Assembly (NCBI GenBank): GCA_031763025.1
Contig: JASSKH010000038.1
Span: forward strand, 1,777,001 to 1,841,000
Length of the DNA stretch: 64,000 bases
From: Macrocystis pyrifera
Taxonomy: Eukaryota > Sar > Phaeophyceae > Laminariales > Laminariaceae
Reading direction: 5' to 3'
Under the pieces are notes generated by a model. The model was not told the DNA's origin and ran no database searches. It worked only from the letters and a program-made list of their open reading frames with translations. Both the position numbers and the translations under genes were made by a program. Of this stretch, positions 15,637 to 52,277 are shown piece after piece. Numbering within the stretch: the first letter of the stretch is position 1; each line of letters opens with the position of its first letter.

Positions 15637-18600
15637 TCAGTACATAATGCTTGCAGTCACTTCGTCGGCAACCTGCAGTGTGTCGATCTCCTTCAGCCCT
15701 CGGTACAGCTGCTTGTAAAACTGGTTGGTGCTGCACCTGAAAAACAACGTAACGGTACGGCACAATAAGCGGGTCGTCGTTAGTCTCGCAGCCCGTTCGG
15801 CTGATAGGAAACCGTGCTGCTGATGCCGGCTGCGATAGGGGTGCACCTACATTTGCCTTCTGAGGCTTCCCACTCGAGGAGCACCACATCCCAACCATAA
15901 GAACCCGACCTTGAGAGAGATGAAAGTGAAACCCGAGGAAGAGCACCATGGCCTACATGCACTAGATATTTATTAAATACGTATCGATCAACACAAATGG
16001 CATACCAGGTACATCTCAGCGACTTTTTAGATGAGAACCCCTCCCCCCCCGCCGGTCAAACTGAATGTTAACAGAACGTGCTGCACCCCCTGTCGTTGAG
16101 CGCCTCACATACTTTCCCTCAGGACCCTCTGTTGAGGAGTTCCTACGACCATTTGTTGGATTAAAGTTGACTCCACGTTAGGGGGGGAGGGTGTCGCATT
16201 GTATGGGGTTTTTACTTTCAGCCAATCAGAGCCGCCTGGCCAAGTGGCCGCCTTATTTGTTGCCCAATCATACGTAACCCTTCAACATGCCCCCCCCCCC
16301 CCCGACGATATGCGCCGCCATGGGGTTCTTCGCCCTACTCCAAAACAACCAGAGACGTATCCATACATGTTTAGTGGGGAAAAGAGCTACTCGCCCGAGT
16401 GGCCTAACGCTATGATGAAAATAAAGGTACCATACCCCCCCTCCCCCTCTACCGTAGCACCAGTCTAAATTTTAAAGCTAAGCCCGGTACACATTCACTT
16501 GGGCAAGGCTATCTACGGACGACACGTTATTTAATCGTTCGGGTCCGACGATAACGGGTAGCTCCTTGGTCGCAGAGCTCTGTCGCGAAGAAATACTTGA
16601 ACTGAAAAGTGCAACCATTTCCGTGGCGTTGCTCTTGACTCACGTACGGGTAAACTTCCAGCCCAGATATTTATACGCCCACAACACGTTACGAGTACAG
16701 CGCATGTTACTTAAATAGCGCCACAGTCGGTAGGCTACGTAAAAATTGCCGCAAGCGACGCACGAAGAGTTACAGGCACGTGCAATCGCTCCATCCTATG
16801 TTTTCTCGATGCAAGAAGAAGTATATACGGGCAAGTGCAACTGCTTGGTCGTTCTCTCTCTGCAAGTCGATGCAACTCCGTCAATAATCTCGTACCGTAT
16901 TTTGTTGTGGTAGAACGGGTGGAGTGTCGGAGCCATCCACATGAAGCTCCAGCAGGCGCTTTCGCCTTGGTCAGTCCTGGCTCGTCACGAAGGAGCGAGA
17001 TAGACGGGACATTGGAACAAAGGCGGGGGGGGGAGGGGTGTACTCATTATCATGCATGGCCGTAGTCGTATGACCGTATACCCTCGCATCCGTACAATGC
17101 CGGGACGAAGCGCGTCGGATTTTCACCGAGCAGGCAGACATTGCTTGCACCAAACTCGAAGCGCCGTGAGGTGTTGGGCGAGTCGCACAAAGGGTGAGCT
17201 GTATCCTACTAAGAACCGCTTTAGAGGCGGATTTTCTTGCATATGGATGACAGCATCAATGAATTGATGTTATTTCTGGTGTGACCACTTCCAGAGACAG
17301 CAATGGGGTTACTATGTAACTGCCTCGTGGGCGCCTCACCATATACATACTGCGTGATACGAGCATCCCCCTTGTGCGGAGTAAATGTTATCCCCGCACA
17401 AAAATGATCTAGCTTGACCGCCAGCCGTGGTAACCTCCAAAAACAAAAAACTATAAAAACGGGACCCTGACTGTATAGCTCACGTAGTGAGAGGCGTGTT
17501 TTCAAGCGTCGTCGCCAACCGACACCAACCCAACCTATATATATATATATACCAGGAACAAAGACCAGGGGGAGGAGCCACAAGCAGCGTGGTGAAGACC
17601 AGAGGGAACGCACAGCATCGTCCCCATCGAGAAGATACATTTTCATTCGTTGGAAGCATTTTTCGGACAAGGTAAATACGTTCCCACCTCGAGACAAAGT
17701 CCTGCATCTTTAGTCCTCCTTCCTACCATGTAATCTGCGTTTTAATTCCGCCGTATTTTCACGCCAATCTCCAGGTGTTAAGAAAATCGCGGTGGCCTTA
17801 ATCGTCGAAACTCACCACGTTGTGCTTTCGTTGTTAAAGTCGATTTTGTATTTGATCCCCCAAAGAATCCTGGCGCCGAGGACGTGGTCGATTGCGTGCA
17901 TGATGCAAGACAAGAAGAGGCCTTCTTGCAGATCGAGCGGGATGTCGTTGTCTCGCATGGCCCTATAATGAAAGCGAACGTAGAGAGGTTCGTCCGTAAG
18001 TAGGCTCTGCGAGCGCGATGGACGCAGGGTCCGTTAAAGGCGGCAGGTCCCAAAATTTTGCCACCATGTGTTCGATACTGTGTGAGGTACAGGGACAAGT
18101 GCTACGACAGGGGATCAAAGTATCGAGCACTTTTTGGTCGAAGTATGCCTTACAGATCGAACTCCTCAACTGATGAAACTACTCGGTATCCCATTTGTGT
18201 TGTACGGTATCATTCGTTAGAATGTACACCTACAGTATGAACACGGCCACGACAATATTTATTTGGTTATGCCAACTAATTTAGTGAAAGTCAATTTTTG
18301 GGCGAGGTATCTCAGCTGCTGCCCTTCTCATGAAATGCGGCCAGGAGAGTGAGTAATCGTGTCACCCGTTGCGAACATTATCGGTGCTTGCCACGGAGAA
18401 AACGCCTCTATCCGCTCCGTACAAAACCAAGCCTCGAATGCACAACCGCAGGAAGGACACTAACGAATGCCTATTCGGCGCCAGAATCGCTATTTGCTGA
18501 CCATACATCGTCACGTTCACGCTGCACGTACCAAACTAGAAAGCTATACCAGGCGTGAAGCTCGAGAGGTTGGGGGGGAGTTGTACAAGTATCTGTGGTT

Positions 18601-20838
18601 AAGTACGGTATTGCGCACGAACCCAGCTGGCAGAAAGATGCTTCGACGGAACGTGGGCACTGCTAGTGTTGCTCCTTACAATCTACGGCAGTGTATCCGA
18701 GGGTTGGAGATGGGACTGTCTCACCTGCGCAGAACGTGCCGGGCTCCCATCATGAAGCCCGACAGCGGCAGCTCCAGCTCGCTCCAACGTTCAGTCCGTG
18801 CATGGTCAGCACCACCAAGGGGGGACATGTTGCGCGACTCCGCCACAAGAGAGTCCCGCTTTGTCGGCGAACCCAGCCCCATCCACTTGTTTCCCTCAGT
18901 CCTGATAGCATGCAAAATGTGAGTCTAGTGGCTCAGATACCACTGCGTGCACCGCGTTCAAGTATAGGAAAAATTGGACGTTTGGAGCTTGTACTGGTGG
19001 TATAGATCCGGCAGGAACCCTATCCTTTGCAATGACCACAGTGAGGCGGCTGTGCTGCACACTGTGAGAAAGGGATGCTTGGAAGAAGCGTCGTGTGATC
19101 ATTCAGAGATGCTTTTTTTTTCGTTCTTCAAGAACATGTCCACTATCTCAACACTCTACCCGCAATAACAGAGCGCAACGTTTTCGTATAACCAGCATTA
19201 TTAAAATGTGACCACGACATATACACCAGCTAGCTGCACCCGGACAAATCACAGGAAATATCTCGTTTTGCCACTTGGAAAAACATCTTGGCAATACTAC
19301 CTGTATTTCAGGCACTCAACGTTCGGTTGAGGATCGACCACGAACTGGCTCATCACCATGGCACCGAGTGAGTAGGGTCTTTGACGCAAATCACAGGGAG
19401 CCACAAGTACTCCCGCACACTTTGAAATTGCTCCATATATTCAAACCTGGTGGTCGTAAGGGGCCCCAGGGATCCGTGAAGAAGCCCATGGTGCAGCCAA
19501 GTCGTAGTCCACGTCGACTCCATTAGCTTAGTTTTCAGGCTGTCGTCCGACACGATACGCTCGACCAGCGCGTTGCCGAGTGCGTGACACTTGGTGTGAG
19601 CAGCCGTTGTCCAGTAAAAGTGGAGGAAAGACACCTGGCTTTCCGGGTCGCTCACCGGTTCTCCGTTGACAAGAAACGACGTGATGTTCACCGCCCATTT
19701 TTCGTCCTGGCCGCCGCATCTGTTTTTGGTGTACTTCATGCTCCACGATTTTATGGGGGTGACTACTCCTTCGTCGTACTTGCTGCCGCGTTCGCGAGCA
19801 ACGTGTTCCAGCATGCATTCGTCAACGCGAATGTAATAGTGGTGCTCCTCGCACGAGCGCTGTTTTTCGCCGTTGGATTGTCGTGCAGAGAGTGCAGCGC
19901 GCTCGGATGTCCGATCACGGCGAAGGACAGTGACAAGACTGGTGCCTTCGATGAACGCCACCACATCTTCTGTCGTGGGCGTACGCCAGAAAAGGGCGCT
20001 CCAAATGCCCAGTAAAACTGCAAAGGGGAACTTGATGAAGTACCTGTCGTGGGCAGCACGAGGAGGGAGGGGGATGGGTGATATGATCAGGGGGCTTTGG
20101 CGCTTCGTGTTGTATTCGGTGTCGCTATTATTCACGTCATGGGTAACGACGGCCGTGTACATGGGGAGCTACGCACCCCCGCAAAGTTCTTTTTTGAAAA
20201 ACACAACATGTTCTCTCTTCCGAGAAGAAGCATGCCAAACGAAAGGCATGCCGTTTTAGCCCTCGATAGCCGACGACGTGATCGTGTGCCTACCGCATAT
20301 TCCTACGCTTCACGAAAGAAATGATCCGCCTCGCCTACCGTATTAGTACGTCGCTAGCGCTTGCCAACATATACGTAATACTGCTACTTACCTGGTACGT
20401 ACTTATCAGGCGCGCGTGAACCGCATCAGCTTTGGTGATTGCTGGTGCAAGGCAAGATTCGCACGTGGACCCGGCAACGTGAACCAACGACGGGGGAATA
20501 CGATTTTCATCAGCGGAAAGCAGACACTACGCCACAACGCGGATGTGAGCGAAAACCCTTTAATGGCCGCCGATCTGATGGTGCACCCAACGCGCACGTC
20601 ACAGTAGCACACCAAGCACGCATGACGCACTAACTTGACCTGTCAACGAATGCTAGAAATCTCTGCCAAACGTTTTGCCGCAGGAACTACACGCTAGCAG
20701 ACATCATATCACCGCCCACATTGGAATTTGTAGGAAGTAGTGGGCCAGATATCGGAGCAAGGGCTGCTTGAAGCTGTCTAGGTCGACATCGACGTTGGCG
20801 CTGATGGGCTTGTATGAAGCTTGCTCCACCTTAGAGAC
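15637..20838 (-). CDS. Tandem-family protein, copy A (split gene, His-rich, membrane-anchored?)
   Basis: I reconstructed six exons on minus: 20838-20720, 20043-19447, 18901-18725, 17962-17816, 16976-16896 and 15736-15637, the last ending in TGA. All edges have GT/AG, and every junction restores frame at phase 2. The 406-residue product starts V-S-K. It has a likely membrane segment early in the second exon (YFIKFPFAVLLGIWSALFW) and histidine clusters conserved in copy C: HFYWTTAAHTKCH, WLHH, HAIDH, LHPFYH. It ends in TASIMY. The start codon is missing. A possible first exon is listed separately. By eye, exon 2 of this set is about four-fifths identical to copy C. I do not recognise the family. 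A membrane enzyme using metal or haem bound by histidines is an inference only. The intron between the last two exons is over 1.1 kb and holds a 14-base C run. Confidence 0.75.
16290..16303. repeat. Poly-C run (14)
   Basis: Fourteen consecutive C lie within the last intron of copy A. Similar long G or C runs occur at 23198, 29808, 35047 and 55987. Confidence 0.9.
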
Positions 20839-21119
20839 CTGTGGCAAAATGGAAGGAAGGACCGGTGTGAGGTTTACTCAGATTGGTTAGTTAGAGCGGC
20901 AGTCTGGGATTGAAATCGTGCACTAGGTACGCCGTAACGTCCACTACCTACACCTAAGGGCAGTCCTCTACCGCGGCGCCACGAGGAAATCACGCGACAT
21001 TAGGGCAAACCTATATATATATATATATCTGGTATGTAACATCACCTGATGTATTGCACACATGCTATCGACCCGCAAGTGGCCTTCAAGCATCGAGTGT
21101 ACCCGGGAAGCTGGCGTAC

Positions 21120-21209
21120 ATACAACAGAACCGCGTTGGCCAGTAAGATCAATAAGTAGACCTTGACAAACATAGGCGCAAGCCAACGTTTAAAAGCTAA
21201 TGTCCACAT
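21120..21209 (-). CDS. Candidate first exon of family copy A (signal-anchor-like)
   Basis: Reading on minus from an ATG at 21209, 30 codons encode a basic start followed by a strongly hydrophobic stretch (VYLLILLANAVLLY). They stop at TAT|GTACGC, a usable donor in phase 0. The first confirmed family exon starts in phase 0 after CCACAG at 20838, so the join is in frame and would supply a membrane anchor. No matching exon was found upstream of copies B and C, and another donor (CAG|GTGATG) lies further downstream in a different phase. This is therefore a proposal, not a firm call. Confidence 0.3.
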
Positions 21210-21249
21210 TCCAGGTACGGTATACGTGATACGTACCAATACATACATT

Positions 21250-22080
21250 TCTAAGTAGTACCGAATAACACACGCGTGATAAGATAAGACACACCCAGGC
21301 AGGGATGAATTTCAGAGCCGATTTTCTCCAAAATATGGGCGCGCACACGCAACGAAAATAATGGTTTTGGAAACATATCGTGGAGATCTTTCCGTAGACG
21401 CGTGTCGCTCACCGGCGGCGTTTCGCCGCAACCGTTGTAGAGAAAATCAGCTGGTGAATTCGTCCAAGAGGGTGTGCTTTCTTGCGTGGGTTTACGGCAG
21501 AAGTTCAGGTTTGTATGTATATGTGTATCGCGTGTACACTCCCGCGAGCCCGACTGGTTTGCTGAAAGCCAAATAACCGCACCCTATAGGTATTGATTGG
21601 TGCGTTCCGTCGCGAGTATTGAAAGCCGATTTTGGGGCGAGCAGGCTCTTCTTGGTGTCTCGCAGCACTGCGCGGCTGAGCCCAATGCACACATTATACG
21701 ATACCCACAACAGCGAGTTTTCTAGTCAACAATTCCTCGCGCTCCTATGCTAAACTCATTAGAGCAGGCAGACCACTTCCACTAAGAGCTGATTCGTAAA
21801 AAAGTCTTGAACACCCCCCTTGAATCACGTGGAGGAGGTTTGTTCACGGATTTAGACGTACTTGCCGTTATAGGCGGCACCTGAAATCAGGTATAACAAA
21901 ACAATCCCTGGTATATACTACACATACTACACACGCCACAGGAGAGCGCGATACCCCGCCTGTTTTTTCTTTTCACGACCCGTTGTCTTCGAGTTAGCCC
22001 GTGATGTACTGCTAATACTTTCTACTACGACCTTTGACCAAGCGAAATGTGCTTACAACGCCTATTGATAGTGTGCGAGT
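21250..22080. other. No gene recognised
   Basis: An alternating TATATA run at 21011-21026 lies just before this stretch. A minus-strand frame starting with ATG at 21710 has a GC-rich third position for about 43 codons and could be an exon. It shows no duplicate and no domain. Confidence 0.4.
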
Positions 22081-22084
22081 GTAC

Positions 22085-22440
22085 GCGATGCAATGCACGC
22101 TACGAGGTTGGAGTGTTGCTGTTACAGCAGTAGGAAGGCAGAAACCGGTGCTGACCGGACGGTGGAGAGGAGGGGTGTGTTTGTGCTCACGTCATGCAGA
22201 GAGAAGGGGTACTATGCCATTGATTCCACCGTGATGCCTTCACCTACCATATTTGAACTGCATGATGCGATGCACGCCATCGAGGTTTACACCGTTATTG
22301 TCGATAAAGCAGGAAGGCAGTACCCGGTACTGGCTCAAGGGAAAGGAGAGGTGGGGGTATCAGTGGCAGTGGGTGTACTGCTGGTTTGGTCTCGAGTCTG
22401 CAACAATAGTTCCATCGTGACTCCACCTATATATTTATGA
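22085..22440 (+). repeat. Two diverged repeat units with coding-like text
   Basis: Two stretches about 190 bp apart share 'ATGCACGC.(A)CGAGGTT', a TGTTGCTGTT/CCGTTATTGT block and AGGAAGGCAG...CCGGT.CTG. Translated, they read S-V-A-V-T-A-V-G-R-Q-K-P-V-L and T-V-I-V-D-K-A-G-R-Q-Y-P-V-L. The amino-acid agreement at G-R-Q-x-P-V-L suggests an ancient protein repeat rather than random DNA. The segment at 22885-22960 (T-L-V-V-L-D-A-D-G-K-K-E-R-F) may be a third, more distant relative. Confidence 0.4.
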
Positions 22441-22869
22441 AAGCTGCAACAGCAGCAGTAGCAGTATTACACCTACAATATCTGGTAGCCTGTAACAACA
22501 TCAGTAGTGAGTGATCACGAACCCCAATTAGTTACCGTGTCTACTGAAGAACACGGGTTGAACACGACAACTGTTGAATACAACTATTACTCTACAATCT
22601 TCATATCATGCACCTGGTACCATACCGTACAAATGCCGAAAAACGACGAGTAGAAGAACGGTTCAATCCCCTTTCATACCGCAGTGTACATAACCTTACT
22701 GTAAATTTGAATCCCATTCCAAGTGTATGGTTCCCACAACAGGACTGTTGTCCTAGAGGGCTTAATGGGAATATCACAGGCACACATCACTCACTGCAGA
22801 AATGATAGTCGATCGTGGCTATACTGGAATACTTGTGTATCTTACTCCTGGGACAAGAGTAGCACCGCT

Positions 22870-23197: not shown

Positions 23198-23212
23198 GGG
23201 GGGGGGGGGGGG
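23198..23212. repeat. Poly-G run (15)
   Basis: Fifteen consecutive G. No gene feature is attached to it. Confidence 0.9.
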
Positions 23213-24306: not shown

Positions 24307-24317
24307 GTAAGTATTAA

Positions 24318-24725: not shown

Positions 24726-25058
24726 TCGCCCGACGGGATATAGTTGTAGCTGTTGTCAACTTCTTCTGCAACGCTTAGGATGGCGTACGGCGTAGTATTG
24801 CTGTCGCACGTCGGACGATGCCCAAAAAGGGCCCCCTATACTGTCATGCTTAGCGCCGTCAAGACTAAATAAAACAAAACTCTCCTTCGCTCGTACCGAT
24901 CGATATAGATAATGTTTCCAGTGGTGTCTATCGTCATCGGGGTGACATGGTGGGAGAATGAGTGTCGTCCGGACGCGCTGCGTATGATAACAGAATGGAC
25001 TTCACGTGTTACAACAACAAAGTTACCGAACACAAGAATAGGTAGGGTGTTTTTATAC

Positions 25059-25174
25059 TAATACGGGGGACTATAGTAAATAGGACCTACGGTACATACA
25101 AAAACCTATATATTTGCCTATTTTTAGTAGCAATATTTGGTCTTATATAATATATACTGTGGTCCCCCGTAATA
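25059..25174. mobile_element. Palindromic MITE, copy 3 of 6
   Basis: It has the same ends (TAATACGGGGGACTATAGT, and its inverse ending CCCCCGTAATA) and the same 'GGACCTACGGTACATACAAA' inner segment as copies 4 and 6. It lies only 330 bp from copy 2, in the same orientation class. Confidence 0.9.
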
Positions 25175-26207: not shown

Positions 26208-26919
26208 CTTTGAGACACCTAGATACCTTGCGATCCACAACACGCCCATCGCGCCGCGTGGGCACTGATACTCATTATCCCTTCAGCTGTATAATAGTGC
26301 TTCTGTTAACAATATTAACTATTAATAGTTGCCCACAATGCGGCTGCTCTTTTCTCCTGTGTTTTTTGTCGACGCCTCGTCTTCCGTTCCGGGAACGTGC
26401 GGCCAATTTCAGCAATACGCCAATATATTATTAATAATATTATAGTAATACGCTCACACATAGCATGCTATTAATACCGTACACTCGTGTCTCCATTGTT
26501 CTGGATCTGAACCGTGAATACTTCTTTTTTTTTTCTTCCATCAATAAGTAATGGAACACTTTCTTCCTCCTGTTTCATTTTCCCCCCGTTCCTTCATCTT
26601 GAAGCAATACAAGCAGCAAGTTTTGTACGTGATTGCGACGCGCGCTAGGGCGGCATGTTCTCTCCTCTTCTCTTGCGCTTGTCGTTACGGTAGAGAAAAA
26701 GTTACGCTGCATTTTATCTCCCGACTGCTGCGCGGAGCACCAAACAAAGTGCACTGCCTCTGTCTTTCTCTTCGTCTTTCCTACGTACCAGATACAGCAT
26801 AGCAAGCCGCTTCGTCGCCGATCATGTCCTACTGTAAGGTTCATCAAGCACCCCAGGGTAAAATTTGGCGTGTGTAAAGTGTTGCCGCCTTCGGCATATT
26901 TCCCATCGGTCTTGGAAGC
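26208..26919. other. No gene recognised
   Basis: Small AT palindromes (AACTATTAATAGTT near 26318 and ATATTATTAATAATAT near 26424) and a T-run at 26524-26534 are the only structures. Short frames on both strands look random. Confidence 0.45.
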
Positions 26920-27028
26920 TATTACGGTAATCCATAGTTAGTAGGACCTACGGTACACACAAAACCCTATATATTTCCCTAATTTTACTAACAATATTTG
27001 GTCCTGTTAACTATGGTCCCCCGTAATA
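26920..27028. mobile_element. Palindromic MITE, copy 4 of 6
   Basis: It starts TATTACGGTAATCCATAGTT (two mutations in the G block) and ends AACTATGGTCCCCCGTAATA. Inner text matches the other copies ('aggacctacggtacacacaaa', 'ttactaacaatatttggtcc'). Confidence 0.9.
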
Positions 27029-31284: not shown

Positions 31285-31289
31285 CTGAT

Positions 31290-34899: not shown

Positions 34900-36330
34900 T
34901 GCAGTACATCGCCTCTCCACCCCAACCGACCCAAACTTCATCGTCTCTCCACCCCAAACGACGGTATACATACATTGTTGTACCGTGCTCAACATTACAC
35001 ACCTTGGAAGAATTATGCACCAACCTAACATAACGTATACCCCCTCCCCCCCCCCCCCCCGTCGAATATCAAGCAGCATAGCCGAACAAACCGTTAATAA
35101 CCTCTAACGGGGTGACTTTCACGCCTCCCACGACATGTACCTCTCGATCGGACATCACGCTGCACAGCCAAGACCGACAAAACCGGCGGCCTGTCATCAT
35201 CTCTATCAACTAAGGCTATACCGTCTTACTTCACTCGGGACTAACCCTTCCACAAGCACCTCATGTACTTCATAGGCTAGATACAGTTGGCAAACTACCC
35301 CACGATCACCCCAAACTGGGTGACTACGAAAGAGTCAACCTTGTATGACACATACCTCTCCACCATACCTCAGGCAGCCTCGCCGAGTCTGGCCCTAACT
35401 AATACCTGCTGTCTTACCAAAGGTATATACCTATCTACACGTTGTCATGCGTTTCAAATCCTAGTACGAACTAAAGCCACTGCCTGCTATCATACCCGTT
35501 GCCTAATGTACCACCTGATTTTATCGCTTCGGGTTTCGCTGCCTTTCCGTTATATCGAAGGAAGCGATCACCAAAACGCCAACCCTTTATGACATATACC
35601 GCCCCTACCCCCGTGTATTTCCAGGTTAAACAGTCGGATCCGCCCAAACTCGCATCTTCACCGGCTAACGACATTACTGGATGCTTCTTTCCGGACTGGG
35701 ACGCAACACAACCACATCACACACACCGTTCCACACACATCGACGTTGAACACCCCCCCCGTCTACGAAAACGTCAGGGCACACTACTGAGGACTTCCAA
35801 TATCCTATTTACAAATCTCTAGACGCACGTTGCTACCGAACATTGTAGTCTGCCCACAATCGCACCGGCTGAAGCAAAACCCGACACGGGACGTAGGCAC
35901 ATCAACGCTGAGCAAACCGTTTTGTTTGGTAGTAAACGTATTGTAAGCTAGCTGTGTGGAAACCAGAGACACTACTGTGCGCTTCCGAAGTGCCGTACAA
36001 CACGATGAAGACACACCGTGCTAGCGTAAATGGCGGCATGCTCGTCATCGAAAGCAGAAACATACACCAAACGTGCACAACATTTACACCAATGGTAACT
36101 TTTTTTTGGGTGTAGAGCTGATTCCAAGCTCGCGTAGTAGAGATAAGGTACACTGCCGTGGATTTCCAAAGTGCCATGTAAACAACTCGGAACACACGTG
36201 CTAGGCGAGAAGGGTTTATGCCCACCACCACGCTGGTTCAAACAAAACCCTACACAGAACATATATCAAAAACTCGAGCCGCCTCTCCCCCGACGACGAA
36301 CTCAGATCATATGTCCAGGTGCATTGACGT
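34900..36330. repeat. AC-rich degenerate satellite B
   Basis: The tract is A/C-rich on plus with loosely repeating blocks about 170-200 bp apart: 'CCTGCTATCATACCC' type phrases, a 'TTCATTCGGG' type phrase, 'CCCATGACATATACC', and toward 36 kb 'GTGCCRTACAACA..GAACACACCGTGCTAG' twice about 177 bp apart. It contains a C14 run at 35047-35060. It ends about 300 bp from the stop codon of family copy B and matches satellite C (46.6-48.5 kb). Confidence 0.7.
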
Positions 36331-36634
36331 GTGCTTGAACCTACGACTAAGAGTAACCGTTATATCAATACTGCGTTTGCTGTATGTTTGGCCAACAAGT
36401 TACAAACAGCTACGAGCTCAAGTGTATATGAGATACGCCTTGTATTCCCGTTTGTTCCGATTTCTCGAGTATTCTAGCTTGCCAGTCTATTGTGCATGCT
36501 GACAAGACAACCTTCCAACTGGGACGGCCTGGTCTTGCGGACTCATCAACGTACCAGCCAGGCCGTCAGCAAGCTATCGCCCTTCTCACTTCTTTTGATG
36601 GTGTTTCATGCTATGCTCTTCAAATTCAGCATTC

Positions 36635-39600
36635 TCAATACATTATACTCGCGGTAATTTCGTCGACGACCTTAAGAGTATCGATCTCCTTTAGTCCTCG
36701 GTAGAGCTGCTGGTAGAAAGGATTGATGCAGCACCTGTTACATACAACACAACAAGGCAGGGCAGACGGGGCAGGGCGTCAGCGTTAGATGGTGACTGAC
36801 CGGTCGGCTCCTGCGTAGATTGATCTACAGACGTCGGGATCACCAGAGCAACGGTATTAACTTGGGCGTTGCCATACGTATGATACCCTCATAATCCTTA
36901 GGATCGGGAGTGTTCAGCGGGGTCTTCATGCATGCCCTCACCGGATCTTATTATGGTAGAACGGGTGCAGTGTCGGAGCCATCCACATGAAACTCCAGCT
37001 GGCGCTTTCACAGTGGTCAGTCCTGCTTGAAACAATATAAACCACAATCAAAACGTGAATCCGAGCTTTTAAGAATGGCAGGTATATCAATGAAACATGA
37101 AGGAGACGGCAAAGTCATTCACTACGCGCATTAGCATATTGAAAATCGAAGGCATGCCAACGGATAGACAACGCCATGCCTACATCGTCAGACGATAGAC
37201 CTGTGGGTCTTATTCTATTCGTCTGTAAGCGGTATCACGATACAGCGCCGACTAAACGTATTAAAGCTCAAGCGCTCCATTGGGTGACTGCTTGTGGCGG
37301 TAGCTCATAGCCATTTTCACTGCAGCAGCTGAAGGCAATATTTTAGGCTTTATAGTGAAGGACAGATGACCGTCGTAGACACTAGCTTCGCTGTTGAAGT
37401 CGATCTCGTATTTTATTCCCCATAGGATCCTCGCACCGAGTACGTGATCTATCGCGTGAATGATGCAGGACAGGAAGATGGCTTCTTGCAGGTCAAGTGG
37501 GGTGGCGTTGTCCCGCATGGCCCTACCACGGAAGAGGAATGTGAGCGATTGTTTATGAGCGAGGGTTGCCAGTGGTATGTACGCGTGCTCGATTGTTCGT
37601 GACACATTCATGCTGATAACCCACACCAGTGAAACCTGCTCATCCGGCAATGCTCATCCAGCAAGAGTCAAGACCTCTTAGCGTCACCCACTCTTCATTT
37701 TGGCAGTCATGGTCAGCTGTGTTCGACGGCAAGGCCAGTCTAGCGCGCCGTGGAATATCAAGAGCGCCAATCATGCTTTCGCATACAGTATGTAGACTGC
37801 GTCATGGCAATCGTCACACTGGCGTCGCTTTCTCAAGAGGCCGATATATGGATGCGTACTGTACGGTGTGGTGCTGCAATTCCCCTTGATATAGCACGTT
37901 GTGTGTCAACAAAGGGCCCAGCTATACATTCGCGCTCAGGCGAAACATTTGGGCTGTCGTTTCGCGGTGACGGAAAATGAAATTCAGGGTGACCGGTAGG
38001 ACCGTCTTACCTGCGCAGAACGTGCCGCGCCCTCATCATGAAGTCCGACATGGGAAGCTCCAGCTCGCTCCAACGTTCAGTCCGTGCGTGGTCAGCACCA
38101 CCAACGGGGGACATGTTGCGCGATTCCGCCACAAGAGAGTCCCGCTTTGTCGGCGAACCCAGCCCCATCCACTTGTTTCCCTCCGTCCTGTGCCACACAA
38201 ACGATCGCGGGATACGGGTTAAGCTTTACAGCCTTCAGATGATGTCAACGGTGGCGTAGTCGACGGTCGCCACGTTGCGTTCTGAACCTTTCAGAATGTC
38301 AACAATCGAGGTGGCGGTCGGCCAGCCTTGCGAAGACGGAAAGGCTATCTATACTCTGCTGCGCGCCGACCGGTCTGGGTCTGGTATGGGCTCCCCTCGC
38401 CGGCAGGGTATTTGCCCTTATAGGGGCAGCAATAGTTCAACGGAACTCGAAGAAGTAAAACATGCAACGAGTGCGGCAGTACAACCAGCAATAGACGGAA
38501 ACGTAACAGCACCTTCCCGATCAACATTAAAAACGTAAACACACCCCTTTTCAAAACCAACGATGTATCCCTCTTCCCGATACGGCGGTGGGGTAGGCTT
38601 ACACGAAACATGGGTTGCTGCTTAAAACGCACGTCGAAAGCATCAGGCACTCGATTTTTTCTAGATCTCTACCTGGTGGTCGTGAGGGGACCCAGGGTAC
38701 CGTGAAGGAGCCAGTGGTGCAGCCAAGTTTTTGTCCACGTCGACTCCATTAGCTTGGTCTTCAAATCATCATCTGACACGATGCGCTCAACCAGCGCGTT
38801 GCCAAGCGCGTGACACTTGGTATGGGCAGCCGTTGTCCAGTAAAAGTGGAGGAATGAAACCTGGCATTCCGGGTCAGTCACCGGCTGTCCATTGACAATG
38901 AACGAGGAGATGACCACGGCCCACTTTCCGTCTTCTCCGCCGCATCTGGTTTTGGTGTACGTCATGCTCCATGATTTGATGGGTGTCACTACCCCTTCGT
39001 CGTACATGCTGCCGCGTTTGCGACTGACGTGTTCCAGCATGCATTCATCGACCCGGATGTAGTAATGACGCTCTCGGTCGACCGCTGTAGCGCACAGTTT
39101 GTTTCTCTTGACGATGCTAGTGCAGCACGCTCGGCCACCCGATCACGACGAAGGACGGTGACTAGACTGGTGCCTTCGACGAATGTCACAACATCTTCGG
39201 CCGTAGGCGTCCGCCAGAAGAGGGCGCTCCAGATCCCCAGCAAGACCGCAAAGGGGAACTTGATGAAGTACGTATGGGTTGAAACACGAGAAACGAGGGG
39301 GGGGTCATATGATGAGATGGTCGTTGTTTAGGGCATTCCTCCACACTATCATAACGCGACACTTATCAACTTTGATTTGGTTGTGGCAGCATCAATGTAG
39401 CAAATACGCATGAGCTTCCTCTGTTTCGGGGGGGTGGAGAGGCTGTAATCTAGAAACGATTTTCGTTCACAATTCAGATGGAATTCCTCATTGTAATAAT
39501 CTTACACAACATGGTGGCTGACTGGCACAACGTGGCATACAACCATGGACGCTCCTCACACAATTGACCAATCAGGAAGCTGGGAGCAATATATCCAGTT

Positions 39601-40038
39601 TTTCTAGTGCACGCAACGTACACCATACGCCATTCCCATTAACGTGGTGGGCAAATGTGTGGCAAATGTAAGTATCTTCGTTAGGTTCTCTGTTATTGTC
39701 GTTAGGGTGCTGTGGGCCAGGAAAATCTTATCCATTTTTCCCCTGACCAAGCGATGGTGACACGAGATTGTTTCAAATGTGAAGGCTAAGCCTACGCCTG
39801 AGCAACGTGCAAATGATTGGGACATCTAAACCTCAGAGATCTGAAATCTTGAGGCGAAATAAACAGAACAAAAAACAATGTTGGGCAGCGGGTACAAGGA
39901 ACGGCACGCAACAACATACATTGGAATTTGTAGGAAGTAGTGGGCCAGGTATCGCAGCACGGGCTGCTTGAAGCTGTTCAGGTCAACATCCACATTGGCG
40001 CTGAAAGGCTTGGAAGAAGGTTTCGTCGCCTTAGAGAC
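36635..40038 (-). pseudogene. Tandem-family gene, copy B, disabled
   Basis: All six exons are recognisable on minus: 40038-39920, 39271-38673, 38187-38011, 37522-about 37381, 37022-36942 and 36734-36635. Three lesions break it. The acceptor before the second exon reads AC instead of AG (39272-39273). One base is missing in that exon (near 39074, where C has CTCTTCGG and B has CTCTCGG), shifting the frame after A-L-Q-R-S. About 11 bases around the donor of the fourth exon are gone, removing GTGAGT. Elsewhere protein similarity to copy C is very high, including H-A-I-D-H and A-P-T-L-H-P-F-Y-H, so inactivation looks recent. Individual exons still appear as open frames. Confidence 0.8.
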
Positions 40039-42588
40039 CTGTGGCCGAATGGAAAGAGGACGGGGTATGGGGGTTTAGTCAGGCCTGCTAGAGGTGATCC
40101 TCGATTATTGCAATGGACATCTATTAGTACTGTAGGATGAGGATGCCCTTGCTATATCTACGGAATGGACAGCCGACGCTCGGCGTGCCCCCGGAACAAA
40201 TTATTGCGCGGGCAATGGTCTGCACTGGATACCGCTATTACTAGACTTATTTTGAAGCATTTCGGGCTTTTGCGACTATTCGGATCGGTTCGCGCTTCCG
40301 ACTGTGGTTACACCGGGATGCCCGCAGCATATGCGGTACCTACAGTCGCATCTGTATCCCTATGCGTTGCTGTGGTTCTTAGATGCATGCGCGATTGTCT
40401 GGCCAGAAGGCTTCGTCGAGTGTTGGTAGCGAGACTGAACTGCTAACCCCACTACTGGGTGTGGTGCGCGTTGCAGCCGGCTACGGCCTGCTGGACAGCC
40501 GATAATCAATACGCTGAGCGGTTGCCCGACGTGTTGCACCACTACAGACAACTCACAGCAAGGAGCTAAGACGTTCCGACTCCCAAAAGTGATGCCGTGG
40601 GACACAACGCCATCTGAACGTATGCTTCGAAGAATGTTAACGAGTAGAATCGGGTTCAGTCGTGACAGTCCCGCCCGCATAGAGTACGCATGTCGATAGT
40701 ATTGGCCGTTCTTTGCTGCGCCTGATAATGGGTGAAGCCCAGGTGTGAGCAGGAGTAGTAGGCACGTTGTTCTGGCGGTTGTGGCTCGACATAACTCCGT
40801 GTAGCGGCACCCCAGCGGATCAGACGAGCCGAGAGGATCTTCGGTTTGGGGTGGGCATCCGTCGTGTCCACTGAAAATATTCGCGCACGCCGGTTTGTGT
40901 CTCAGCAACCTTTACAATCGACGACCAGTTGGGGAGCTGAAAATGAGACTGTCAACTCTGCAACCATCCTTAAAATTCAACTGATTTTTTTGTTTGTGGG
41001 TCTTGTGCAAATTACCCACACATTGTACCGATATTTGCAATCTGTTACCTGCTACAAGTGAAGACAATCGGTTACTCCCATCGCTTCATCAAAGAGATTG
41101 GTCTCCATGGGGGGGTGAAACGCCTCGGTGGAAATCGTCCACTCTCTTGCGAGCATTTCTATCCGGCCAAACGGTCACACCTCCTTTGCGCAAGGTGGCT
41201 CTAACGGCGTTGCTTCGTGTTCGCTCCGTCATTGTGCCGACCTCCTCCGGGCCTATCGGTTTGTTCTTTCCACATGGGTAGAAATAATATCCTACTGTTT
41301 TGCCGCCAGAGTACTCGCGCTACATGCCCAGTGCTCCCTTACTCACTCACGGTGCCGCAGGGGTACCTTATAGTGTATGGTAGTCTTCATGCGTCGGGTG
41401 AATATACCGCGTGTTATCACCCTATTCTACTAGCTTGTGCCAAACAAACATACACCGGCAGCACGAGTGTTGATAGTAAATGTGTGCATTTTTTCTTGGC
41501 TGGCCACTAATGCGCACCGAACTTCATCAAGTACGTACCTCGTGCTCAATGTCATGCACGTGATGCTTATCAGCTAGTCCCGAGTGTGCGAGAAGTGCGT
41601 TTCCCAGATTCGCCATGGGCCCGGTAATTATCAACCGTTGGATCGACCGACCAAATATCGATAATCGAGTTTGAGATGGATGGTCAGTTTCAATTCACAT
41701 TTGCAAGTGAACGGTATACACGCTACACTCACGGTCAAAAGGCTAGTTATCATCTTCCTTAGAGCTGACTTATGAACACGCTAGACCCTCTAGATCTGCG
41801 GGTACGTACGCATCTATGGAACGTTTACGCATGCGGTACAAATCCAACACAATAGTGGTGCCCGCTTGCTGCCACAAGTACTGCTGCAGGTTTGATATTC
41901 ATATATTGTCGTAGTGAAGGAGTTAGAGGGAGACAGCGAACGAACATTCCGCCATGCACTCACCATTTCGTATTCGACAGCCAAAGTCCGCCCGGAAAGT
42001 GAGCAGTCCAAACGTCGGTGCTGTAAGCAGTGAAGCGCGAGCCCCTGCACATCGCAATGCCGGGCAAATAAAACTGTTTGTCACGGGATGGGATCTATCG
42101 AGACGCAGCAGAACCTTACCGCTCGATACGTGACAATGGCCTACCTTTCGCAGCACGTTTGCTGCAGTCATACGCAGTACATTTTTGACTACTGCTGTAG
42201 TCCTATCAAACGAAATATCGAGTATGCATGAAACCCACGCCAGCTGACTTCATGTTATACGTTGAAAGTGATACCGTCGCGTATGAACACCGGGCTGTTC
42301 AATTTTTACTGCCGTGTTGAGACAAAAGAGAACCCAGACCACGTAAAAGCTGGAACAATTCACTTACAGTATATTTTTTACCGCGCACAAACGGCAAACC
42401 CCCAAGCACCACAGCGAGGCAACGCAAGGACGTCGACGTATAGAAACTTGTCTGGCCTTTGGGCAAGCTCATAGGAAACACTACGTGCCTCGTGTGGACA
42501 CTGGGCACAAAGAAACACATCATGCCACGCTCTTACCTGAGAAATGGATGATGTGAAAGCAAGTGCTTGTTCTCTCCAGATACTGTAG
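40039..42588. other. Unit B inter-gene stretch; plus-strand exon candidates
   Basis: The stretch aligns with 52278-54797. The best candidate exon follows TGCCGCAG| at 41362: G-Y-L-I-V-Y-G-S-L-H then T-A-C-Y-H-P-I-L-L-A. In unit C the same exon start (53575) reads G-Y-L-I-A-Y-G-S-L-H and T-A-C-F-H-P-I-P-L-A. Replacement changes are frequent, so constraint is weak. On minus, the text near 40940 reads M-V-A-E-L-T-V-S-F-S-A-P (C: M-V-A-K-L-T-V-L-F-S-A-P near 53190). No unit A match was found for either. Confidence 0.3.
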
Positions 42589-45180: not shown

Positions 45181-45325
45181 AGATTGTCTGCGAGTGAGGC
45201 GCGTAAAACATACGCAGTGGCTAAGGTAGATTGTCTGCGAGTGAAGCACGTAAAACATACGCAGTGGCTAAGAGTGCATTGTCTGCGAGTGAAGCACGAA
45301 AAACATACGTGGTGGCTATTCGCCC
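45181..45325. repeat. 47-48 bp tandem repeat, three copies
   Basis: Units beginning AGATTGTCTGCGAGTGA start at 45181, 45228 and about 45276. Each contains GTAAAACATACGCAGTGGCT. Unit C has one copy (from about 56812), so the triplication arose in unit B. The length is not a multiple of three and shifts any frame. Confidence 0.9.
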
Positions 45326-45732
45326 TAAAGATTCCTTGTACGTATGCATGCTCTGAGCACGAAATGGACGATGGCGCTAGGCGATGGATGACGTTGACAG
45401 CAGTCAAACCACCGCGATATTGGGCACCATGGTGACCAGATTTATTCACTTGACTCCATTGTGCCCCGTGTTGTGTAGCCTTGGTGTATTGAGCTTCTGG
45501 GTTGTGCTGATTGATTGGCCACGAGGCGTCCTCATCATTTCTCTGTAGACGCCATACAGGATGAATGACTGCCGATGTAGACCGGCATTTCCTCCGAGCC
45601 TGTGTATAGCCCCTTGCAGCATGGTGCCGGGACTAAAATATCAACCTCGAGCGCGGTTACGTGTCGTTCATGTTAAAACCGCCTCTTGTTCCGTCGCTGC
45701 TACATTAACTCCCAATCGGGAAAATACCGAGC

Positions 45733-46333
45733 GTGGCATCAATGACATCGGAGTCAACCAGCGGAGGCGAATTTAATGCCACCGAATGCCGAGCCAGCGA
45801 GATGATGTCGGTAGGACACAACTTAACTGAGGGGAGGCCTTATCATATAAGGAAACCGTTAGTAGCTCTCGCTCCCGTTATACTTACTTATATCAACCAG
45901 ATACCAAGCTTGAATCACATGTGGGATTTAGAAAAGTTTGGGCCGAGCCGGTCTTCTCCTTTGCTATCCTTGAAGGTGAAACGAGCGGTGAAGGCTCTGG
46001 GGCACAACTGGCGACGGCGAGCAAGCGCTGACGTTGTTGGTACTCTAGGGCAATGAGCGAGAAGCACCATCCGCGAACACTTCAATTGCCATGCACGACG
46101 CGAGCAGATATGACGGTCCGTACAAATATTTTTATGAAGTAGGCGTTCGATCCGCTGTACGTTCCCACGAATTCGAGATATTGGCAGGAATTGCCATATC
46201 AGGTGTAACGCAGGTACATCAATGCCTATGGCTCGGAGACGAGGGAAGAGCGATATTGGTGGGTACTGGTATCACAGGCGAGAGAAGGGGTCCAGCTATC
46301 GTGGGCGGGCTCTTCAGCTGTCAGGATAGCTAG
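45733..46333 (+). CDS. Candidate exons in the spacer between units B and C
   Basis: Two plus-strand frames look protein-like. The first, 45733-46056, contains R-K-P-L-V-A-L-A-P-V-I-L-T-Y-I-N-Q-I-P-S. The second starts at the ATG at 46091, runs M-H-D-A-S-R-Y-D-G-P-Y-K-Y-F-Y-E-V-G-V-R and reaches CAG|GTACAT at 46213, a fair donor, though the frame continues to 46333. There is no counterpart in unit C or A, no motif and no proof of splicing. They are listed as unverified. Confidence 0.2.
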
Positions 46334-46599
46334 AGTACCTTCTCCACATCCCTCAACATACCTCCTCCTATGTATGGGGGCTAGCCCGGGCATTTGGCAA
46401 ACATGTATTGTATAAACAGTTTCGGACCCGTACACAGCTTTCTTGGGCTATTTAGTCGGCTAGGAACGTCACACGATACTGTCCGTCTAACACGGGCAAA
46501 GCAGAATAAATAAACGCTGCAGAATATCGCTCGTCGACTTCCAAAGGCCCAAACCATCTCCGTTGTCCTGCACATGACGACTTTACAGTGTATCATGCC

Positions 46600-48500
46600 C
46601 TACATACATCTGAACTTCCGCCGCAGCACCTCGAAGGGAGATACAAGCAATGCCCTGCCTTCCCACGACATCACCCCCCTGGCTCGTCCATCCGACACTT
46701 ACGCTAACCGTCCTAATACATCACCTCACACGGAGCGTTTGCCACGCATTCCATGACGTACACCTCTGACATACACCTCCCCATCTTTTATGAGGCTGCC
46801 AAATCAAGTATAACCGAACCAATCGCCTGCTATTATTCCCATTAACAAACGCCATACCTGTTTTCTTCAATCGAGAGTAGCTGCCCCTCGTGCACACCAG
46901 AGGGAGCGACCCCCAACACACACCTCTTCGTACGCCACCAGGCTTCATGGCTGAGTATTGCAAACTCAACGAATGTCAGTATCCCCATCGTACCTCGCTA
47001 CTTCGTCGCGGATGCGTTTGCCCCCCAGGCATACCCACGAGAACGATCACCGAAACACAAACCACCCATGACATATATCTCCCTCTAGTTTATCAGGATT
47101 GTTAACGCGTTTGACCACACCAAATGCCTGCTATCCCACCCATCAACAAACAACATTCCAGGCCACTTCATTCGGGGTTAATATTTTCCTTGAGCATCTG
47201 ACAAGGAGCAACTACCCTCCCATAACTTAAACCTCCCTGTCGGCTATCCAGCTGCATACCCGAGTCCAGCTAAACCCAGTAGCTGCCATATTCCCCTTCA
47301 ACTAACGCCATGCCGAGTTACCCCATTCGGGAGTAAGCATCTCCTTGAACACGTTCACAAGAGCCGACTGCCAAAGCGTCGACCTCCCATGACATATACC
47401 GCGCTAAGCTGTTATCCGGCCGGATGGCCAGACTACCCATCGGTCGCCTCAAAGAGTCAAGCTATCAATATACGTGCCTCCAAATCTAGTCTCAGGCTGT
47501 ATAGCCGAGTCTGACCTAACCTAACATCGCCTTTGGTATTCACCAACTACCGTGGTATCTAGTCACTTCATCTGAGATGAAGCTTCCATCCAAGCATCTC
47601 CAGTGAAGTACAATAAGTACAAAAACGGAACTCCTTACAAGATTCCATCTATTCGTGTATTGTCAGGCTGCACATCCTAGTCCTAACCAAATCCACCGCC
47701 TGCTATCATACCCATCAACAAATGTCGTACGTGAATTCCTCGCTGCGGATTGCGTTGCCCCTCGGTCACCCCGAAGATAATGACAACTCTAGAGCGTCAA
47801 CCCTTAACGTCATATACCCCACCACATATGTTCTGGCTGCATCGCCGATCCTGACACAAACTGCATCCCCACCAACTAACGACATCATCCCTGGGTTCCT
47901 TATTCGGGAAAGAGACGTGCGCATCAACAACACACAACACACACATCACACGCACACTACTGCACACACGTTCACGCTACATGTACCCTGCATCTTGGTG
48001 AGTAACAATATCCTCCCACGCTCCCTAGTCCAAACTCCTAGACTATACTACTTTGGACTTTCAGATATCTTACGAAACCCTCTACAGTAGACTGATGCAA
48101 CACATAACATTGTAGTTAACTCACCGGCTACATCCAACGCCTACACGGACCGTATACACACCAACCATGAACAAACTGTATGTTGTGGTGCAGAGCAATT
48201 ATTTGCTCGCTACGAAGGAAAATGGTACACCACTGTCGACTTCCAACTGCCATACAAAAACCTCTGGGCTCACAGCGCTATTCCAAATGTCAGCATGCCT
48301 GTCATGAAAGCATACCGTTGTCCTGAACATTCACCAACCCACTTTGATCAAACCACTAAGGCTGGTGTAGAGCTAAACCAATCTCGCGTACACAAAATCT
48401 AAAATACTGCTGCTGTGCATTTTCAACGAGCCATACATACAACTCTGAAAACACGTGCTAGGGGAAGCGGTTCTGCATTATGCCGGCCACGCACTGAAAA
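46600..48500. repeat. AC-rich degenerate satellite C
   Basis: The clearest of the satellites. It repeats 'GCCTGCTATCATACCCATCA', then 'TTCATTCGGG.TTAA', 'TCCTTGA.CA', 'CTCCCATGACATATACC' and 'GGCTGCATA.CCGAGTC'. Copies start near 46826, 47126, 47282, 47528, 47697 and 47868. Spacing is irregular, most often about 155-170 bp. It ends about 400 bp from the stop codon of family copy C. Frames through it are not credible genes. Confidence 0.75.
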
Positions 48501-48911
48501 AATTCAAAACACCACAAGGAACATATAAGAAATAACCAAGCCGCCCATCCCCCGACAAGGGAATGGAACCAGATGACGACTGAGACAACCTGCTTCGGGG
48601 TTGCTGTCCGAGCGCCATGAGTGCTCGTTGATTGCACCCGTAACGACTGCGCTTTCCCTACGGGCAGCCAACCGGCCGCGGGCCAGTTTCGAACTTGCGT
48701 GTATATTCGATACGCCTGGTGATTCCGCTCGTGTTGATCTCTCGATTGTTCCACCTTCCCTGCCCATTGTCCATGCCGGCAATGCAATCTTCCAACTACG
48801 ACAGCCTGGTCTCGCTGACTCATCAACGTACCAACCAGGCCATGAGCAACCTATCGCCGCCCGCACTTCTTGGGGTTTCGTTTCATGTTGTAAACCTGAA
48901 ATTCAACAGTC

Positions 48912-51900
48912 TTAATACATTATACTTGCGGTGATTTCGTCGACGACCTTAAGATTATCGATCTCCTTCAGTCCTCGGTACAGTTGCCGGTAAAATGCAT
49001 TGGTGCTGCACCTGTTACATACGACACAACATGGCATAGCAGACGGAGCAGGGCGTCGATGTTTGGTGGTCATTGACCGCTCGGCTTCTGCGTGGACAGA
49101 TCGGCAGACGCGGAGATCACAACCAGTTTGGGCGTTCCGAAACGTATATTGACCTCATTGCAAGAAGGGTCAGGTTTATCAAACGATTTCCTCATGCATG
49201 GCCTCACCGGATCTTATTATGGTAGAACGGGTGCAGCGTCGGAGCCATCCACATGAAGCTCCAGCTGGCGCTTTCACAGTGGTCAGTCCTGCTCGTAACA
49301 ACATGGGCCAGATTCAAAACGTGAATGCGAGCGATATGGCAGAGATACCGATGAGACATGAAGGGAAGAGCGAAGTCAATGCAATGCTTTGTCAACGAGG
49401 TGTCGCAACGCTGAAGGTAGGCCAACGGACGGACAACGCCACGCCTACATCATCGGACTGTAGAGCTTTGGGTCTGCTTTTGTTCGTCATTAATGGGTAA
49501 CACGGGACAGCGCCGACCATACGTACTACAGCTCAAGCGCTCCGTTAGGTGGGTAATTGTGGCGGTACCTCGAAACCGGTTCTACTGCAATTCAAGGCTG
49601 TCCTTCAGGCTATATAATGAAATACACATGTCCATCGTCCACACTCACCAGGTAGTGGTTTCGCTGTTGAAGTCGATCTTGTATTTTACTCCCCACAAGA
49701 TCCTTGCGCCGAGTACGTGGTCTATCGCGTGAATGATGCAAGACAGGAAGATGCCTTCTTGTAGGTCAAGTGGGATGCCGTTGTCTCGCATGGCCCTACC
49801 ACAAAAGAGAAATGTAAGCGGTTTTCGATGAACATGGGTTGTCCGTGGCATGAAGGCGTAGTCCATCATGCATGACACATTTCATGTTGATAACAAACTT
49901 CGATGACGCCCACTCGTCCAGCAAGGCCCAAGACCGCTTCGCCTCATCAACTCACCATGTTTGCAGTCTTGGTTTGTTGTGTTCGACAGCAAGGCCAGTC
50001 TATCGCGCCGTGGGATGACATGGGCGACAATTCAACCTTCGTGTTCAGTATATACACTGTGTCATGGCAATCTTCACGGTGACGTTGGTTTCTTAAGAGG
50101 CCGATACATGGATGAGCATTGAGGAGTGTGGTGGTGCAAATGCCATCTTTATTGCTATTTGTGTGTCGACAAAGGGCACAGATATGCATTTACGCTCAGG
50201 CGAAACATTTGGGCTGTCGTTTCGCGGTGACGGAAAATGAAAATCAGGGTAAGTGATAGGATCGTCTTACCTGCGCAGAACGTGCCGCGCCCTCATCATG
50301 AAGTCCGACATAGGAAGCTCCAGCTCGCTCCAACGTTCAGTCCGTGCGTGGTCAGCACCACCAAGGGGGGACATGTTGCGCGACTCCGCCACAAGAGAGT
50401 CCCGCTTTGTCGGCGAACCCAGCCCCATCCACTTGTTTCCCTCCGTTCTGTAGAATACAAACGATCGCGGGATACGGATTCAGCTTCACAGTCTTCAGAT
50501 GATGTCAACGGCGGCGTAGTCGACGGCCGCCACGTTGCGTTCTGAACCGTTCAGAATGTAAGCAATCGAGGGGGTGGTCGGCCAGTCTTGCGAAGACGGA
50601 AAGGGTATCTATACTCTGCTGCGCGCGGACCGGTATGGATCTGGCATAGGCTCCCCTCGCCGGCAGGGTATCTGCCCTGAAAGTGCCAGCAATAGTTCTA
50701 CGGAACTTGAGGAAGTAAAACACGCAACGAGTGCGGCCGTACAACCATCAAGATGATAGAAGCGTAACAGCACCTTCCCGATCAACATTAAAAACGTAAA
50801 CACAACCCTTTTCAAAACCAACGATATATCCCTCTTCGCGATACGGTGGTGGGGTAGGCTTACACGAGACATGGGTTGCCGCTTGAAACGCACGTCGAAA
50901 GCATCAGGCACTCGATTTTATCTAGATCTCTACCTGGTGGTCGTGAGGGGACCCAGGGTACCGTAAAGGAGCCCGTGGTGCAGCCAAGTTGTTGTCCACG
51001 TCGACTCCATTAGCTTGGTTTTCAAATCATCATCTGACACGATGCGCTCAACCAGCGCGTTGCCAAGCGCGTGACACTTGGTATGGGCAGCCGTTGTCCA
51101 GTAAAAGTGGAGGAATGATACCTGGCATTCCGGGTCGGTCACCGGCTGTCCATTGACAATGAACGAGGAGATGACCACGGCCCACTTTCCGTCTTCTCCA
51201 CCGCATCTGGTTTTGGTGTACGTCATGCTCCATGATTTGATGGGTGTCACTACCCCTTCGTCGTACGTGCTGCCGCGTTTGCGACTGACGTGTTCCAGCA
51301 TGCATTCATCGACCCGGATGTAGTAATGACGCTCTTCGGTCGACCGCTGTAGCGCACAGTTTGTTTCTCTTGACGATGTTAGTGCAGCACGCTCGGCCAC
51401 CCGATCACGACGAAGGACGGTGACTAGACTGGTGCTTTCGACAAATGTCACAACATCTTCGGCCGTAGGTGTCCGCCAGAAGAGGGCGCTCCAGATCCCC
51501 AGCAAGACCGCAAAGGGGAACTTGATGAAGTACCTGTCGGTTGAAACACGAGAAACGAGGGGCAGGGTCATACGTGCGATGGTCGTGATTTAGGGCATTG
51601 GTCCACACTATCAATACTCGACACTTTAGCAGCTTTGATTTGGTTGTGGCAGCATCAATGTAGTAAATACGCATGAGTTTCCTCCGTTTCGGAGGGGTGG
51701 AGAGGCTATAATCTAGAAACGATTTTCTTTCACAATTCAGATGAGTTCCTTATTGTAATTATCGTAGACAATATAGTGGCTGACTGACATATAACGATTT
51801 GCAACCTTGGACGCTACTTACACAATTGACCAATCCGGAATCTTGAAGCACCGAACACAACTTTTCGGGTGCAGGAACATGCATTGTACGCACACGTGAT

Positions 51901-52277
51901 GGGAAACGTCAAGCACCATCGATGCGTTCGTTGTTGTCGTTTGGGTGCAGTGGGAAAGGAAGACTGATACATTTTGTTTTCCATGACCAAGCGATGGTGA
52001 CACGAGATCGCTTCAAATGTGGCGGCTAAAACTACGCCCGAACACAGTGCATCGGATTGAGGCAAATATATCTTAGACCTCTGAAATCTTGAGGCGTAAC
52101 AGATAGCACAAAACCAATGCTCGTCAGTGGGAACAAGCAACGGTACGCAACAGCATACATTGGAATTTGTAGGAAGTAGTGGGCCAGGTATCGCAGCAAG
52201 GGCTGTTTGAAGCTGTTCAGGTCAACGTCCACATTGGCGTTGATGGGCTTGAAAGAAGGTTTCGTCGCCTTGGAGAC
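48912..52277 (-). CDS. Tandem-family protein, copy C (intact over six exons)
   Basis: The exons on minus are 52277-52159, 51533-50934, 50447-50271, 49795-49649, 49288-49208 and 49011-48912 (stop TAA). Donors are GTATGC, GTAGAG, GTAAGA, GTGAGT and GTGAGG, and every acceptor is AG. All introns are phase 2 and exon lengths match copy A except for one codon. Counting from the first V-S-K, the 407 residues hold a hydrophobic segment at 41-59 (YFIKFPFAVLLGIWSALFW), H182/H190/H194 in HFYWTTAAHTKCH, H225-H226 in WLHH, H321/H325 in HAIDH, H367/H371 in LHPFYH, and R/K-rich stretches. The N-terminal exon is not found. The family is unknown to me. Clustered conserved histidines beside hydrophobic stretches suggest a membrane-associated metalloenzyme or haem enzyme, as inference. 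Confidence 0.8.

Follow-up and report, generated by a model that had tools for sequence, protein, structure and literature searches.

The window considered here is a stretch of 64,000 nucleotides from the giant kelp Macrocystis pyrifera (contig JASSKH010000038.1, C128 in our genome search, positions 1777001-1841000), and it bears three copies, A, B and C, of a gene family whose protein is nameless in the libraries searched. All three lie on the minus strand and can be aligned over six blocks. Copies A and C are intact, each having five GT-AG introns, all in phase 2, with joined frames that run for 406 and 407 residues, respectively, before a stop codon. In copy A, the block found as exon 1 (20720..20838, 119 nt) is preceded by an AG acceptor and so is not the first exon of the gene. 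Exon 2 (19447..20043, 597 nt) encodes a hydrophobic segment, an HTKCH motif and the sequence WLHH, while exon 3 (18725..18901, 177 nt) encodes H272, a histidine that is the same in all ten sequences of the alignment described below. An HAIDH motif is found in exon 4 (17816..17962, 147 nt), a conserved MWxxP and a variable LHPFYH in exon 5 (16896..16976, 81 nt), and the C-terminus TASIMY in exon 6, which includes the stop codon (15637..15736). The exons of copy C are at 52159..52277 (exon 1 as found), 50934..51533, 50271..50447, 49649..49795, 49208..49288 and 48912..49011 (exon 6 with stop), also on the minus strand.

Copy B (36635..40038, minus strand) is a pseudogene. Its exon 2 is shifted in frame by 1 base and is preceded by AC where the acceptor AG should be, and the 3' end of its exon 4 has diverged. 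An earlier note on this DNA had described six exons with matching splice sites and frame in every copy, which is correct for A and C but fails for B on these three counts.

The gene models of A and C are real. When seven copies of the family (A, C and loci L032, L035, L036, L037 and L038) were joined across exons, all 35 donors were GT, all 35 acceptors were AG, every junction was in phase 2, and a stop followed after 406 or 407 residues. In all seven, an AG acceptor directly precedes exon 1, so the models lack one or more exons at the 5' end. A search for the exon with the start codon, covering as much as 3 kb upstream of several copies and more distant parts of the window, was negative, and the frames immediately upstream of exon 1 contain stops in A, B and C. 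DNA similarity between A and the other copies (12 comparisons) ends at points ranging from 26 bases inside exon 1 to 85 bases before it, the exception being L039, in which a single patch of 51 bases some 1.9 kb upstream is also similar. The recent duplicates C and L035 are alike across the whole 2.9 kb compared upstream, and C and L037 share patches.

A tandem cluster under purifying selection

The genome searched comprises 537,376,219 bases in 223 contigs, in agreement with the 537 Mb, 223 contigs and 50.37% guanine plus cytosine (GC) given in the genome description (PMC10498591); GC within the window is 43-54% per 2-kb step. Contig C128 carries 11 minus-strand copies spanning about 0.31 Mb, a number which, like all copy counts from this search, is a lower bound. 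By exon reading, 7 of the 11 are open and joinable. The other four are broken: besides B these are L033, where exon 2 contains an in-frame stop, and L034 and L039, whose frames break in that exon. There is also a decayed, inverted copy on the plus strand at 2164787, with its later exons near 2189488-2194350. Four diverged paralogs, with presumptive splice sites, were detected on contigs C204, C220, C210 and C194, and C200 has a remnant of exon 6 with its stop. The tandem arrangement proposed in the earlier note is thus borne out, but the three copies that it saw belong to a cluster of 11, accompanied by a decayed copy, paralogs and a remnant.

Two of the paralogs have peculiarities of their own. 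Exon 2 of L043, on C210, contains low-complexity inserts rich in Gln and His and has retained the HTKxH and LHxG motifs. In L044, on C194, the matches to exon 2 fall into two pieces with a gap between them, which suggests an additional intron, and TASIMY and the stop are kept.

Within the window, a unit containing B (36109..41271) is a tandem duplicate of 48364-53489, about 80% identical and with a period of about 12.26 kb. The duplication includes several kb upstream of both B and C, with fainter similarity as far as about 43.6 and 55.6 kb. Identity between B and C is uneven: it is 98% in exon 2, 91% in intron 2 and 98% in exon 3, compared to 72-79% in the other introns, and exons 1, 4, 5 and 6 are 93, 91, 98 and 88% identical. 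This pattern apparently reflects a recent gene-conversion tract from exon 2 to exon 3 (38010-39270 vs 50270-51532), involving the pseudogene and the intact copy or a relative of it. The similarity of B and C is therefore partly inflated and is not attributable to selection alone. The highly identical 81-base exon 5 falls outside the tract.

Selection was assessed by the method of Nei and Gojobori, which for A and C gave 0.073 for non-synonymous (dN) and 0.665 for synonymous (dS) divergence. The resulting dN/dS of 0.11, a check that the earlier note had asked for, is far from 1, and strong purifying selection on the protein is thus real. Among the seven joined copies, dN/dS was between 0.09 and 0.25 in 20 of 21 pairs. 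We considered whether the family could be a transposon gene and judged this unlikely, given that the introns of the seven joined copies are in matching positions and that selection is strong.

Conserved residues and a bacterial homologue

The alignment of kelp proteins had nine members, the four diverged paralogs and five copies from the cluster. It excluded every broken copy as well as L035 and L036, which are near-duplicates, and for three of its members exon 6 was absent. Six histidines are invariant in this set (H189, H193, H224, H272, H320 and H324), the first three forming the layout H-x3-H-x30-H. Several motifs had been put forward as conserved from the window copies, and of these only the HTKxH core, LHxG and HAxDH hold in all nine sequences; LHPFYH does not: LHPLYN, LLPFYN, INPLYN, LHPFLQ or LNPIWN is found in its place. 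The extreme C-terminus is well preserved, as TASIMY and the stop are kept in all seven joined copies and in the paralogs on C204, C210, C220 and C194, while two decayed ends read TAGIMF and TASIMC. A single hydrophobic segment had been placed after the first shared exon; the top segment, MYFIKFPFAVLLGIWSALF (mean hydropathy 1.71), in fact straddles the junction of exons 1 and 2, and there is a second one (mean hydropathy 1.48) that includes HAIDH itself.

A tblastn search against plasmids returned one record, from Flammeovirga sp. MY04, with E values of 6e-3 for copy A, 9e-5 for the C220 paralog and 0.4 for the C194 paralog. The matching protein is the hypothetical protein WP_066217003.1 (P0001 in our analysis), which has 444 residues and is encoded on plasmid NZ_CP003562.2 at 58791-60125. 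In hhalign, the kelp profile aligned with it over residues 159-406 at a probability of 96% and an E value of 3.7e-9, with a score of 71.0; the reversed sequence scored 13.9, and none of 150 shuffles exceeded 23.0. In hmmsearch, the score was 37.5 bits vs at most 5.4 over 500 shuffles. Residues 251-406, the C-terminal 156, gave 35.7 bits by themselves, the best of 500 shuffles reaching 5.8. Identity between the kelp and bacterial proteins is 20-24%. Judging from these profile comparisons, we regard distant homology of the kelp family to the Flammeovirga protein as firm, the significance being carried by the C-terminal part.

The alignment of all ten sequences contains 38 identical columns, among them H189, H193, N197, W218, H272, R293, E311, H320, D323, H324, W360, P363, S403, I404 and Y406. 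The kelp and bacterial proteins thus have in common HxxxHxxxN, one lone histidine, HxxDH, MWxxP and a C-terminal S-I-x-Y, all in the same order. H224 is absent from the identical columns, as this kelp-invariant residue aligns with a Tyr in the bacterial protein. The C-terminus is fixed to its last residue in kelp and bacterium alike, which makes a structural or catalytic role more likely than a eukaryotic sorting signal. The bacterial gene differs from those of the kelp in being one uninterrupted frame, and its product has about 100 extra N-terminal residues with two strong hydrophobic segments. It has no match in Pfam or NCBIfam, and its neighbours (a ParB-like protein, a CoiA-like protein and a phospholipase D) are uninformative on function. 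A search of the kelp genome with the bacterial protein as query gave no match, but such a search is blind at this distance. Bacterial contamination was judged an unlikely source of the kelp genes, as they have introns and are only 20-24% identical to the bacterial protein.

Library searches gave no recognised family. For copy A no Pfam family was found, and among the nine aligned members there was a single match, at an E value of 7, in one of them. NCBIfam returned six models, each for one member of the nine, the best (E 0.0081) being an aminoglycoside nucleotidyltransferase model, which we take as chance, and PHROGs two families, again each for one member, with a best E value of 0.23. The PADLOC models of anti-phage defence gave nothing for copy A or the bacterial protein up to an E value of 1. 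Among PDB sequences there was no credible match to the family, the kelp profile having none up to an E value of 10; a light-harvesting protein of the kelp genome found its best PDB matches in fucoxanthin chlorophyll proteins. Scans of viral contigs by protein and by profile, of phage collections and of GTDB genomes (one of the latter with a single poor pattern) yielded no confirmed relative. An origin from a virus or phage was rejected on these scans, the two exact pattern matches in viral contigs sitting in or beside reading frames without resemblance; a match to a Leptospira phage (E 0.3) was dropped, being antisense to an annotated gene. In the literature, which is not searchable by sequence, we found no description recognisable as this family, and UniProt or algal annotation is likely to contain it as a cluster without a name. 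The family was called unrecognised in the earlier note, and so it is in Pfam, NCBIfam, PHROGs, PADLOC and PDB, but it is not without relatives. As far as its sequences tell, it is a real, orphan and constrained gene family with a bacterial homologue, represented in giant kelp by seven or more intact tandem copies.

Possible function of the encoded protein

Of the functions that can be envisaged, we tentatively favour one that is possible but far from assured: the protein may be a membrane-tethered, non-haem metal protein that works on membrane lipids in the manner of a small lipoxygenase with a single domain, or of a similar oxygenase. The protein comprises a hydrophobic N-terminal segment, which would probably serve as membrane tether, a middle region and a C-terminal region. 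The HxxxHxxxN and HxxDH stretches look helical, and each would present a pair of histidines one turn apart. These two pairs, with either a third histidine or the C-terminal carboxylate, could bind a single redox metal, either iron or manganese. The substrates would be unsaturated lipids derived from the membrane, and tandem expansion might then have diversified an oxylipin-type or defence chemistry. A metallo-enzyme mechanism is proposed tentatively, mainly because the first pair (H189, H193) is invariant within the kelp family, and the enzymatic reading is best regarded as an informed guess. The suggestion in the earlier note of a membrane-associated metal or haem enzyme seems plausible, as the paired histidines, N197, D323 and the C-terminus are identical in the ten sequences, except for the part built on LHPFYH, which is replaced in paralogs.

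The likeness to lipoxygenases, which was noticed post hoc, lies in the order of the ligands. For the Pseudomonas aeruginosa enzyme these are given as His377, His382, His555, Asn559 and the C-terminal Ile685 (PMC5712309), and an order of the same kind is seen in the kelp protein with H189, H193, H320, H324 and Y406, although the kelp spacings are mostly shorter (4, 127, 4 and 82 residues vs 5, 173, 4 and 126). The residues listed for a Myxococcus lipoxygenase are His372, His376, His549 and Asn553 (PMC6612559). The second ligand pair of lipoxygenases is HxxxN or HxxxH, corresponding to the HxxDH of all ten aligned sequences, and in both groups a conserved C-terminus follows the two histidine pairs, which in lipoxygenase supplies the fifth ligand. 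Brown algae have prokaryote-like lipoxygenases that are described as single-domain and as tandem-expanded in a kelp, the expansion being reported for Saccharina (PMC5712309).

Several results weigh against this interpretation. The lipoxygenase pattern His-x4-His-x4-His-x17-His-x8-His, as set out in PMC5712309, is absent from the kelp family, and the invariant kelp C-terminus ends in Tyr, not Ile. Comparison by hhalign with three plasmid-encoded bacterial lipoxygenases gave a probability of 0.1% for A1 and A2, with thin profiles and limited power. Pfam scans of copy A, the nine members and the bacterial protein up to an E value of 10 did not report the lipoxygenase model PF00305, which does detect true lipoxygenase exons in the kelp genome (7 matches over the cut-off). 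Modelling exon 2 with AlphaFold gave a mean predicted local distance difference test (pLDDT) score of 41.6, and thus no usable fold, and the model was discarded as useless. Residues 1-250, which include the first histidine pair, gave 8.0 bits against the bacterial protein vs 4.3 for the best shuffle, and the HTKxH stretch alone scored -3.1 bits. H320, H324 and the C-terminus are inside the strongly supported part of the homology, whereas H189, H193 and H272 are placed by the alignment; the match of H189 and H193 to a bacterial HPLLH depends on colinearity, on which hhalign and MAFFT agree. The one remaining pair in the selection analysis, L035-L036, had a dN/dS of 0.89 at a dS of 0.007, where the changes are too few to judge. 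Membership in the lipoxygenases was rejected on the negative profile comparison, the lack of PF00305, the missing histidine-rich pattern and the terminal Tyr, and this is why we say that the protein may work like a small lipoxygenase and not that it is one.

The true lipoxygenase exons are themselves clustered in the kelp genome, on C208 (about 10.90-11.18 Mb) and C213 (about 0.63-0.80 Mb), which fits the expansion reported for Saccharina (PMC5712309).

The same conserved residues can be read in other ways. A hydrolase, acyltransferase or isomerase that depends on a metal and acts on membrane lipids would make equally good use of the conserved His, Asp, Asn and Glu set, and our data hold no particular pointer to O2 chemistry; no credible match to a hydrolase or transferase family was obtained, the best being the chance-level nucleotidyltransferase model mentioned above, and we consider this reading doubtful. 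The histidines could instead be structural, in a membrane or structural protein without enzymatic activity, as their conservation is matched by that of many aromatic and hydrophobic residues. This is unlikely in our view, since the residues that are identical at 20-24% identity include five His, several Asp, one Glu, one Asn and two i,i+4 His pairs.

A dinuclear metal site is a further candidate. Type-3 copper proteins such as haemocyanin and tyrosinase have HxxxH pairs to which the kelp pairs can be likened, and in arthropod haemocyanin the CuA pattern is HxxxH with a third histidine some 26-31 residues on. A membrane-tethered enzyme of this kind, type-3-copper-like or di-iron, might use HxxxH with H224 or H272 for one site and HxxDH with E311 for the other, and it is true that H224 is invariant in the nine kelp sequences and that H272, E311 and D323 are identical in all ten. 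The type-3 proteins, however, have three histidines per copper at both sites. The kelp family lacks the third one of the second site, there being no invariant His after HxxDH where LHPFYH varies, while the position of H224 is a Tyr in the bacterial protein, and no Pfam match was found, so we rate a dinuclear site as very unlikely. A haem protein with two of the paired histidines as ligands appears highly improbable. The pairs themselves, the second of them in a hydrophobic stretch, would suit it, and in phmmer the bacterial protein matched myoglobin weakly, with a best E value of 0.26, but these matches were judged to be chance, and the kelp profile had no matches up to an E value of 10.

If the lipoxygenase-like oxygenase were the correct reading, the family would represent a so far unknown branch of oxylipin chemistry in algae, and metal ligation by the C-terminus would have occurred a second time. 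A broader proposal, which we put forward with real doubt, is that kelps and marine Bacteroidota share a superfamily, so far unrecognised, of mononuclear metallo-oxygenases anchored in the membrane. Two helical histidine pairs closed by a C-terminal carboxylate are the solution used by lipoxygenases, and this superfamily would either reproduce it or have it by distant descent. The bacterial homologue is encoded in a single frame and easy to express, and its metal content, fold and substrate are open to direct experiment.

Other features of the window

Seven long frames outside the family were scanned against Pfam, and six of them had no match up to an E value of 0.1; the seventh (10420-10917, minus strand) matched DUF4789 with an E value of 0.0027 and 18.6 bits, under the 27-bit cut-off. 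A short repeat of about 96 bases is interspersed at 25058-25153, 26919-27014 and 58451-58546 and may be a small mobile element; it is 66-80% identical to the reference copy, and related pieces are found near 24.7 and 43.4 kb. A long array of AGT triplets occupies 1096-1392. Near the end of the window is a 120-base tandem repeat with about 2.3 copies (63634-63955), and the last two 2-kb steps (60001-64000) have AT skews of -0.50 and -0.31, far from the rest of the window.

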